Assembly: GCA_903828565.1 (NCBI GenBank)
Contig: CAIKMQ010000009.1
Location: 62,001 to 126,000, forward strand
Direction: 5' to 3'
Source of the DNA: an uncultured Leptolinea sp.
GTDB taxonomy: Bacteria > Chloroflexota > Anaerolineae > Anaerolineales > Anaerolineaceae
Length of the DNA: 64,000 nucleotides
The translations under genes were made by a program, and so were the position numbers. This document shows, in pieces, positions 35,634 to 38,500 of the stretch; position 1 is the stretch's first letter; every line of letters starts with the position of its first letter. Under the pieces are notes generated by a model, which was not told where the DNA came from, made no database searches, and worked only from the letters and a program-made list of their open reading frames with translations.

Positions 35634-35662
35634 AAACCCCGCCGGCGGCGGGGTTTATTCTT
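35634..35662 (+). terminator. Hairpin between the glycosyltransferase and HNH genes
   Basis: AAACCCCGCC (35634-35643) pairs with GGCGGGGTTT (35647-35656) around GGC, then ATTCTTTT. It fits a terminator for the plus-strand gene and may also work from the minus side. Confidence 0.75.
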
Positions 35663-36131
35663 TTCTCTGGTTTCTATCCAAAACTGGCGGGATGACCACA
35701 TCATACTGCTGCAGCCAGGTAATATCCAGCTGCCATTCCTGGCCGCTGCGTATTTCGAAAACAGCAAAGGCTTCATCCAAATAACTGGTAAGAACCGCCC
35801 GAGACCAGCCGTTCACGCGCATCAGGTGATTCTCTGCCGCGCCGTCCCAGCCCATGCGGCGGGCAAGGGCCATATGCTTTGCGCGGTGACAGGCTTTGCA
35901 TAGAGATACCAACCCAATCAAAGATTGGACGAAGGTTTCGTCATCATACTGCCAGATCTCATGACATTCCAGCGGGTAACCATTACCGGTGGAGCCGCAG
36001 ATCTCGCAGCGGTACCCCGCTTTTTCTGCAGTGACCGCCCGCAGGTAATCCCAATCTCTTTTTTTGAGATTAGAGCGCAGGTTGGAAAAGAAACAACTCC
36101 GGGGGACAAGTTCGACCTGTAATTTGGTCAT
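35655..36131 (-). CDS. HNH endonuclease-domain protein
   Basis: A 158-residue protein with HNH fold: C42/C45 (CEICG), ECHEIW (C56-H57), and CKACHRAKH with C78, C81, H82 and H86. Such domains cut DNA; here there is no clear partner, and it is the last gene of the nusA operon, 33 bp after the thyX-like gene. Residues 90-158 are unlike known HNH proteins. A DNA-nicking or repair role is only inferred. Confidence 0.8.
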   Translation of the reverse strand: MTKLQVELVPRSCFFSNLRSNLKKRDWDYLRAVTAEKAGYRCEICGSTGNGYPLECHEIWQYDDETFVQSLIGLVSLCKACHRAKHMALARRMGWDGAAENHLMRVNGWSRAVLTSYLDEAFAVFEIRSGQEWQLDITWLQQYDVVIPPVLDRNQRKE

Positions 36132-36164: not shown

Positions 36165-37583
36165 TCAGACTTGCGCAAAATATACCTCTTCCACGCTCTG
36201 CCAGGTCTCATCCGGGTGAACCGGCAGGTAGGCACCTAGCAGCGGGTGCACCCGGCGAACCTCTTCGGTGACGCGTTGCGCGACACGCCTGACCGAAAAA
36301 TGAGCATTCGGCGCGGAGCGTAATCCGCAGAAAGCGTAAGCCTCGCGGAAATTCATTGTCATCAGGACGCGGCGGTTAAAGCCGTTTGGAACTACATACC
36401 CGGCCGCAGGGCCGATTTGTGAGGATAGACGGTGATAGGCCTGCGCAGCCTGGTCCATTGCTTTTCGGTATGCATCCTCAATTCCTGCCTGGCGCAACAT
36501 GGCTGGTACGGCATATCCGTGTTCACAGGTAAGCGCCTGCGCAGATTGTGTCATCATGCGGTGACGCTTGACCTCGAAGTATGCACCTTGATCCATCACC
36601 AGGTCAAAGGTGTACGTTGTATGCTCCAATTCCCGTAATGGGACATCAAACTTCCGCAGGTCCTCGAAAAGAGTCTGGATCAAACGTGCCTTCTCGACAG
36701 CCGGCATGGCGGCAACCAGTCCGCGGACAGCATCAAAGGGAAGGGCAGAATACCTGAAGAGCGCGGCTGTTGCCACCAACTCTTCCCCCTCCGGCTGCCA
36801 AGCTATCAGCTGGCACCAATCCACCGGCGAGGTTTCTTCAATGGCAGGCAGCCAGTTTGCAAGTGCCCCTGGAAGCTGCTGCTGGTAGGGGACTTCATCC
36901 GCGTACTTGACCAGGGTGGGTATTTCAAGCGCGGCTGCTGTTTTCACCTGCCTGCCGATCTCTCTCACCTCTTCAAGCGGGTGTGAAAGCATCTTGCGGA
37001 TCATGCTTTCAAGCAGGCGCGCATTGGCGGTCATGCCTACATTCGCAAGCGCAGCCGCAGGCAGGTAGAAACGGGCAGCATCTACATATTGTGAGCGTAT
37101 GCGCCGCTCCCAGGCTTCCTCTGTTTCATCCGGGCGTTTTGGATTTGCGCCCAGGGCAATGGCTTTTAATGGCTGCAGGGCTTCTTCATATCCGGTGAAT
37201 AACGCCTGTACCGTTTGCTGATACTCCAAATCCAACCCAGCTTGCTTTACTTCCGCCGGGATATAGAACGCATCGGTACTCCACTTTTGGTAGCGGGTGG
37301 ATTTTTCTGTATAAGAAGCCAGCCGGTTGGATTCGATCACCTCAACCGCAAGGCGTGAGACATTCTCGAATGCCAGGTGAAGGACTGCATGTTCCGCAAC
37401 GGAAGAATGCCCGTAACCCACCACCCACTTCTCATGAAAACTTGCGCTTTTTTCATCCGAGAGTTCCCTGGCGATATCCATAAAAGATTCAGGGGATCTT
37501 GATGTCTTGGCGAAGGCTACCGCAATAGTTTCAGGGCTAAAATCCCGCGGATTGAGGAGGTAGATCTTGCGCTCCTGGTTCAC
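36165..37583 (-). CDS. thyX: Two-domain ThyX (FAD-dependent thymidylate synthase-like)
   Basis: A 472-residue protein made of two ThyX-like halves, about twice the usual 220-250 residues. Half 1 has GHSSVAEHA (58-66) and SNRLASYTEKSTRY (85-98), which keeps the S..E.S.RY part of the signature RHRxxSxNExSxRY but loses RH. Half 2 has RHRMMTQSAQALTC (340-353), which keeps RHR but loses the E.S.RY part. Both halves keep the later N-R-x-hydrophobic segments (MTANARLLES; MTMNFREAYAFCGLR). So one active site may combine both halves, or one is inactive. It overlaps ribF by 4 bp (ATGA), the source of its FAD. Confidence 0.85.
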   Translation of the reverse strand: MNQERKIYLLNPRDFSPETIAVAFAKTSRSPESFMDIARELSDEKSASFHEKWVVGYGHSSVAEHAVLHLAFENVSRLAVEVIESNRLASYTEKSTRYQKWSTDAFYIPAEVKQAGLDLEYQQTVQALFTGYEEALQPLKAIALGANPKRPDETEEAWERRIRSQYVDAARFYLPAAALANVGMTANARLLESMIRKMLSHPLEEVREIGRQVKTAAALEIPTLVKYADEVPYQQQLPGALANWLPAIEETSPVDWCQLIAWQPEGEELVATAALFRYSALPFDAVRGLVAAMPAVEKARLIQTLFEDLRKFDVPLRELEHTTYTFDLVMDQGAYFEVKRHRMMTQSAQALTCEHGYAVPAMLRQAGIEDAYRKAMDQAAQAYHRLSSQIGPAAGYVVPNGFNRRVLMTMNFREAYAFCGLRSAPNAHFSVRRVAQRVTEEVRRVHPLLGAYLPVHPDETWQSVEEVYFAQV

Positions 37584-38500
37584 TTTAAGACCTCCCGGGC
37601 TATCAAAACATCCCGCTGGATCTGTTCTACCAATTCACGAGCTGAAGAGAACCTTTGCTCTCCCCTTAAGAAAGCAACGAACTCGATCGCAATCAATTCA
37701 CCGTACAGCATCCGATCGAAATCCAATATATGCACTTCCAGATGCGGGGTGATCTGTGCTTGGTCGAAGGTCGGGCGTACGCCGATATTTGCAACTGCCA
37801 ACCGAGTCTCCTCCCCCAGTTTCACCCGGCAGGCGTAGACACCATTCCCTGGCAGTAAGCGTAATTTGGATGTAGCGATATTGGCAGTGGGGAATCCCAG
37901 GCCGCTGCCCCGGCCATCCCCATGCGAGACGATCCCTGAGACCGAATAGTGCCTGCCAAGGAACCGGCTTGCGTTCACCAGGTCAGACTGCCCGATGAAC
38001 TGCCTGATCTGGCTGGAAGAAACCACGAAACCATCCAGCATGACCGGCGGCACTACCTCCATCGAGTAACCAAGTGATTGGCTGAGCTTCTCGAGCATCA
38101 GCGTATCACCCGTGCGGCCGCGCCCGAGCGCAAAACCCTGACCCACCAGCAATTTATCCAGCTGAATCTGTTGGCAGACCAGGCTGAGGAAATATTCAGC
38201 GGTATAGGCTGCGACCGCCAAATTGAATTCAAGCGAGATGCAGGCATCCACGCCCTGGCTTTCGAGCAGGGTACGTTTTTCATCCTGCCCGGTGAGATAG
38301 AAGGGTTCGTTCTTGCCGCGCAGCACCACCGCCGGATGCGGATGGAATGTCATCACCACGGCTGCAGCCTGCTGGCTATGCGCTCCATTGATCAGCCTTT
38401 TAAGCAAAGATTGGTGCCCAATATGGACACCATCAAAGCTACCTATGGTTAACCAGGTCTTCCCCAGGTGGAGTTCGGAAAGGTTGGTGTAGTGCAGCAT
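37580..38500 (-). CDS. ribF: Bifunctional riboflavin kinase/FAD synthetase
   Basis: A 306-residue RibF. The adenylyltransferase half has TIGSFDGVHIGHQ (18-30) and FHPHP; the kinase half has GHGDGRGSGLGFPTANI-like sequence (about 199-212) and NIGVRPTF. It makes FMN and FAD from riboflavin and ATP. It lies 39 bp after truB, the usual bacterial order truB-ribF, and overlaps the thyX-like gene. Confidence 0.95.
   Translation of the reverse strand: MLHYTNLSELHLGKTWLTIGSFDGVHIGHQSLLKRLINGAHSQQAAAVVMTFHPHPAVVLRGKNEPFYLTGQDEKRTLLESQGVDACISLEFNLAVAAYTAEYFLSLVCQQIQLDKLLVGQGFALGRGRTGDTLMLEKLSQSLGYSMEVVPPVMLDGFVVSSSQIRQFIGQSDLVNASRFLGRHYSVSGIVSHGDGRGSGLGFPTANIATSKLRLLPGNGVYACRVKLGEETRLAVANIGVRPTFDQAQITPHLEVHILDFDRMLYGELIAIEFVAFLRGEQRFSSARELVEQIQRDVLIAREVLK

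Follow-up and report, generated by a model that had tools for sequence, protein, structure and literature searches.

Flavin-dependent thymidylate synthases and their shared active sites

In the homotetrameric flavin-dependent thymidylate synthases (ThyX) whose structures have been solved, each active site is built from three subunits: one contributes the RHR motif and R174, another the SxRY motif, and the remaining one GHxS/H53 (PMC6514825; PMC3498832; PMC11940539). For example, in one site of Mycobacterium tuberculosis ThyX, subunit A provides RHR and R199, subunit B provides S71 and R190, and subunit C provides R87, S105, R107 and Y108 (PMC6514825). In the PBCV-1 enzyme, one monomer gives Q75 and R182 and the other gives S88 (PMC3498832), and H53 is contributed by a third monomer (PMC11940539). 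A duplication of the ThyX domain in Chloroflexi was reported by Valas and Bourne (2009) and is called uncharacterised in the part of that paper dealing with it (PMC3224940). In the literature that was searched, this was the only mention of the duplication, and reciprocal loss of residues was nowhere described. Residues R78, H79, R80, R147, R174, H53, S55, S88, R90 and Y91 are numbered throughout as in Thermotoga maritima ThyX.

A two-domain ThyX downstream of ribF

The window (the whole stretch of 64,000 nucleotides that was analysed) contains an open reading frame at 36165-37583 (-) that starts with GTG and encodes 472 amino acids. Pfam Thy1 (PF02511) matches two stretches of this protein, with 183.3 bits against a gathering score of 24.8, and the double match together with an AlphaFold2 (AF2) model identifies the gene as a two-domain thyX. 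Half 1 (residues 1-245; 36849-37583, -) was delimited by alignment with T. maritima ThyX and relatives, and half 2 (residues 246-472; 36168-36848, -) by alignment and by a VIA-align fold match to 4kat. The halves share 18% identity across 203 aligned residues, and half 1 has the higher Thy1 score. Against TIGR02170, the NCBIfam equivalog model for thyX, the protein reaches 80.5 bits and so falls below the cut-off of 87.9.

The start of thyX overlaps by 4 bases the end of ribF (37580-38500, -; profile search), a gene of FAD supply encoding a bifunctional riboflavin kinase/FAD synthetase; infB-rbfA-nrnA-truB lie upstream, these names, other than ribF, having been assigned by reading the open reading frames. 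A ribF gene on the same strand precedes thyX in 38 of 80 orthologous loci. Directly downstream of thyX, 35655-36131 (-) encodes a small protein whose HNH match is weak and, at 18.1 bits, lies below the cut-off, and an HNH-like protein adjoins thyX in just one of the 80 loci (L033). Past both genes, at 35634-35656, there is a terminator-like stem of 10 pairs with a T-rich tail on both strands.

The full-chain AF2 model, built from 55 sequences, has a pLDDT of 89.4 and a pTM of 0.87, whereas half 1 modelled alone loses its strands and drops to 73.6 and 0.50. This difference suggests that half 1 relies on half 2 and that the halves pack together, in a mode that the models do not give. Half 2 superposes on T. 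maritima ThyX (4kat; VIA-align Z 18.1, rmsd 2.3 over 192 residues). In the PDB fold searches the strong matches were to single ThyX chains only, with VIA rows spanning half 2 (253-461), so that the ThyX fold is assigned to half 2 by structure match and to half 1 by sequence alone; PolB was found to share this fold. A BFVD search matched the ThyX of phage LMM01 over its full length, with an interdomain rmsd of 12-14 against viral two-domain models, which is no close agreement.

Active-site residues are divided between the halves

A sequence-only reading had proposed a two-domain ThyX with reciprocal loss of signature residues, and this description was borne out: neither domain by itself carries the full signature RHRxxSxNExSxRY, the parts of which are shared out over half 1, with SNRLASYTEKSTRY (residues 85-98; 37290-37331, -), and half 2, with RHRMMTQSAQALTC (residues 340-353; 36525-36566, -). 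In half 1, the alignment places S-x-R-Y, R147 (R171, in ARFYLP, residues 170-175; 37059-37076, -) and GHSSVAEH (residues 58-65; 37389-37412, -), which contains H53 (H59) and the serine of GHxS (S61) and, by comparison with published structures, corresponds to the H53/S71-type FAD and folate side that is the third subunit's share; R78 and H79 are gone. Half 2 carries RHR and, at R422 (36318-36320, -), the equivalent of R174, which serves dUMP activation, and has lost SxRY, R147, GHxS and H53. Once the halves are summed, every ThyX site residue is found, with R78, H79, R80 and R174 in half 2 and H53, S55, S88, R90, Y91 and R147 in half 1. The claim that each half keeps what the other lost thus holds for R78/H79 against SxRY but not for R80, which is present in both. 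The division also extends beyond what had been noted, R147, GHxS and H53 being confined to half 1 and R174 to half 2, but at position 174 half 1 has a K, with a one-residue deletion, rather than a plain loss.

The same division was followed through 65 dereplicated two-domain homologues, less than 70% identical, that are encoded in Chloroflexota, in phages and on plasmids from three further phyla. Chloroflexota halves were aligned with T. maritima ThyX (sequence checked against PDB 1kq4) and 20 single-domain ThyX, and the plasmid and phage copies were added. S88, R90, Y91 and R147 are each present in all 65 first halves, as is S or T at position 55; position 53 is H in 51 and D in 14. By contrast, R78 is missing from 64 first halves and H79 from 63, and RHR or RHN occurs in one first half versus all 65 second halves. 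The second halves invariably have R78, H79 and R174, with R80 in 63, and none has SxRY or R147, while H53 is found in one. R165, a subunit-B residue, is kept by most first and most second halves, and the position of M. tuberculosis R87 is R in just 36 of the 65 first halves. Single-domain ThyX retain nearly all the site residues compared, including R78/H79 in 20 of 21. Since the split is identical in 65 of 65 dereplicated proteins, it is not due to chance, and an alignment artefact was rejected on the same ground.

Decay of one half into a purely structural or regulatory domain, with the other alone building the active sites, might be read from the loss of most signature residues from half 2 and from its lower Thy1 score. 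Such decay is highly improbable, as half 1 lacks the R78 and H79 that nearly all single-domain enzymes have, and half 2, unlike a decayed domain, retains exactly R78, H79 and R174 in every sequence. The half 1 pocket is not stripped clean: position 174 is K or R in 59 of 65 first halves and R80 is present in 50, which simple decay fails to explain.

Two further features were seen in the alignment. A large group of first halves (L020-L032; for example L020) has D in place of H53 of GHxS (GYGDDSVAE), and T. maritima ThyX with the mutation H53D is present in the PDB (4kar, 4kas). Five very divergent two-domain ThyX (L133, L134, L135, L174 and L175), which the window protein barely matches, have the signature split alike, with FHHHPFYNSEQVSQRY or similar in half 1 and QRHR in half 2.

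Origin of the two halves

In a tree computed without the motif columns, all first halves form one clade (90/84) and all second halves another (99/95), so that a single ancient duplication fits the sequences. One genus appears intermediate (L136, L137, L172 and L173): three of its four genomes retain RHR...SGRY in half 1 and the remaining one has QHR there, and half 2 is already without SxRY. From these sequences, half 2 was apparently the first to degenerate, which left the RHR of half 1 free to vary.

Thymidylate supply in the genome and its relatives

The two-domain ThyX is the sole recognisable thymidylate synthase of its genome (2.22 Mb, 99.25% complete), in which a genome-wide search detected no second ThyX, no ThyA and no dihydrofolate reductase (DHFR). 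DHFR is expected to be absent alongside ThyX. A second canonical thyX or thyA, which the sequence-only reading had named as evidence against itself, was among the genes sought and was not there; a single-domain ThyX as partner in the same genome was rejected likewise. Within the same family, Thy1 matches occur in 37 of 40 genomes, nearly all of them as two halves of one protein. In the present count, the two-domain form is present in 68 of 201 genomes of the phylum, only three of which have a ThyA-type match, in each case weak and partial. Beyond the phylum, the 309-kb Tunturiibacter phage Tunturi_5 (L169) carries a two-domain ThyX that adjoins dCMP deaminase, a pair leading from dUMP to dTMP.

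These data bear on the suggestion that, through evolutionary drift, the protein now modifies uracil in some other flavin- or folate-dependent reaction, such as that of a UMP/dUMP methylase like PolB, and is not the thymidylate synthase. The identical fold of PolB, the sub-threshold equivalog score and the incomplete signature of both halves are compatible with such drift. It is nevertheless very improbable, because the summed halves retain all catalytic residues, DHFR is absent as ThyX predicts, one phage copy neighbours dCMP deaminase, and no other thymidylate synthase turned up in this 99%-complete genome or in most of the relatives with the two-domain form; the different flavin reaction that had been envisaged earlier is thus unsupported.

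The genome also encodes a thymidine kinase, so dTMP could come from salvage. Moreover, no ThyX match was obtained in two genomes of one genus of the same family (G176 and G215) or in one further relative (G202), all three of which have thymidine kinase; in G176, a single contig of 99% completeness, ThyA was searched for and is absent as well. These organisms may be thymidine auxotrophs that depend on salvage, or they may have an unknown synthase. That the window protein is itself a non-essential relic is extremely improbable, given its full-length reading frame, the invariant catalytic residues of relatives across the phylum and in phages, and its retention in 37 of the 40 family members. A pseudogene was rejected in view of the conservation across the phylum.

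A probable composite site centred on half 2

By alignment, the residues that clearly differ between the halves all fit half 2 as subunit A and half 1 as subunits B and C. As the split matches the published subunit roles, a dimer of fused chains should hold two complete and two dead sites. Two chains would assemble into the usual D2 four-domain shape of ThyX (H1, H2, H1', H2'), an arrangement that is self-consistent in that each half 2 would neighbour two first halves and the other half 2. Each working site would be centred on one half 2, where RHR would hold FAD and R174 would activate dUMP; one half 1 would bind dUMP and form the lid through SxRY and R147 (the latter assigned to this subunit by inference), and the other half 1 would supply GHxS/H53 for the FAD/folate side. 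Each dimer would then have two complete sites, with both half-1-centred positions dead.

The protein is thus very probably a functional flavin-dependent thymidylate synthase, derived from an ancient ThyX duplication and fusion, that would work as a two-chain D2 assembly with composite sites centred on half 2. Several observations weigh against this account: K/R174 and R80 persist in most first halves, R165 is common to most of both halves, the position of M. tuberculosis R87 varies in half 1, the thymidine kinase could supply dTMP, and the interdomain placement does not closely match viral two-domain models. The evidence best supports the earlier proposal of duplication and subfunctionalisation with one composite site for each pair, the kept residues being those that published structures place on different subunits. 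A bolder extension, in which this is an obligate, half-site pseudo-heterotetrameric ThyX of single origin that spread through bacteria and phages, and in which the dead half-1 pockets, with K/R174 and mostly R80, became a regulatory ligand site, is unlikely.

The family amounts to a natural experiment on an active site shared by three subunits, in which evolution has apparently separated the crystallographic subunit roles of ThyX, so that each role could be mutated alone within one gene. It also outlines a route from a symmetric homo-oligomer to an obligate asymmetric one, of which an intermediate genus survives. Because the residues are split between the halves, the textbook ThyX signature is missing from each of them and the equivalog model misses the window protein.

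Comparison with known systems

The duplicated ThyX of non-Dehalococcoides Chloroflexi, described as the sole thymidylate synthase there (PMC3224940), very likely belongs to the same family as the window protein. The relevant part of the Valas and Bourne account concerns the duplication alone, without residue-level analysis (PMC3224940). With the canonical enzymes (T. maritima TM0449, M. tuberculosis ThyX), the window protein shares the fold, the residues of the composite three-subunit site, the probable reaction and the absence of ThyA and DHFR. However, the canonical forms have one domain of 220-250 amino acids and four identical subunits with four sites, whereas here two domains are fused and the site residues are divided between them. 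Proteins annotated as 'FAD-dependent thymidylate synthase' on Bacillus and other plasmids and in the Microcystis phages LMM01/MaMV-DC have the same two-domain layout and reciprocal split; they differ in being only 25-33% identical to the window protein and in residing on mobile carriers.
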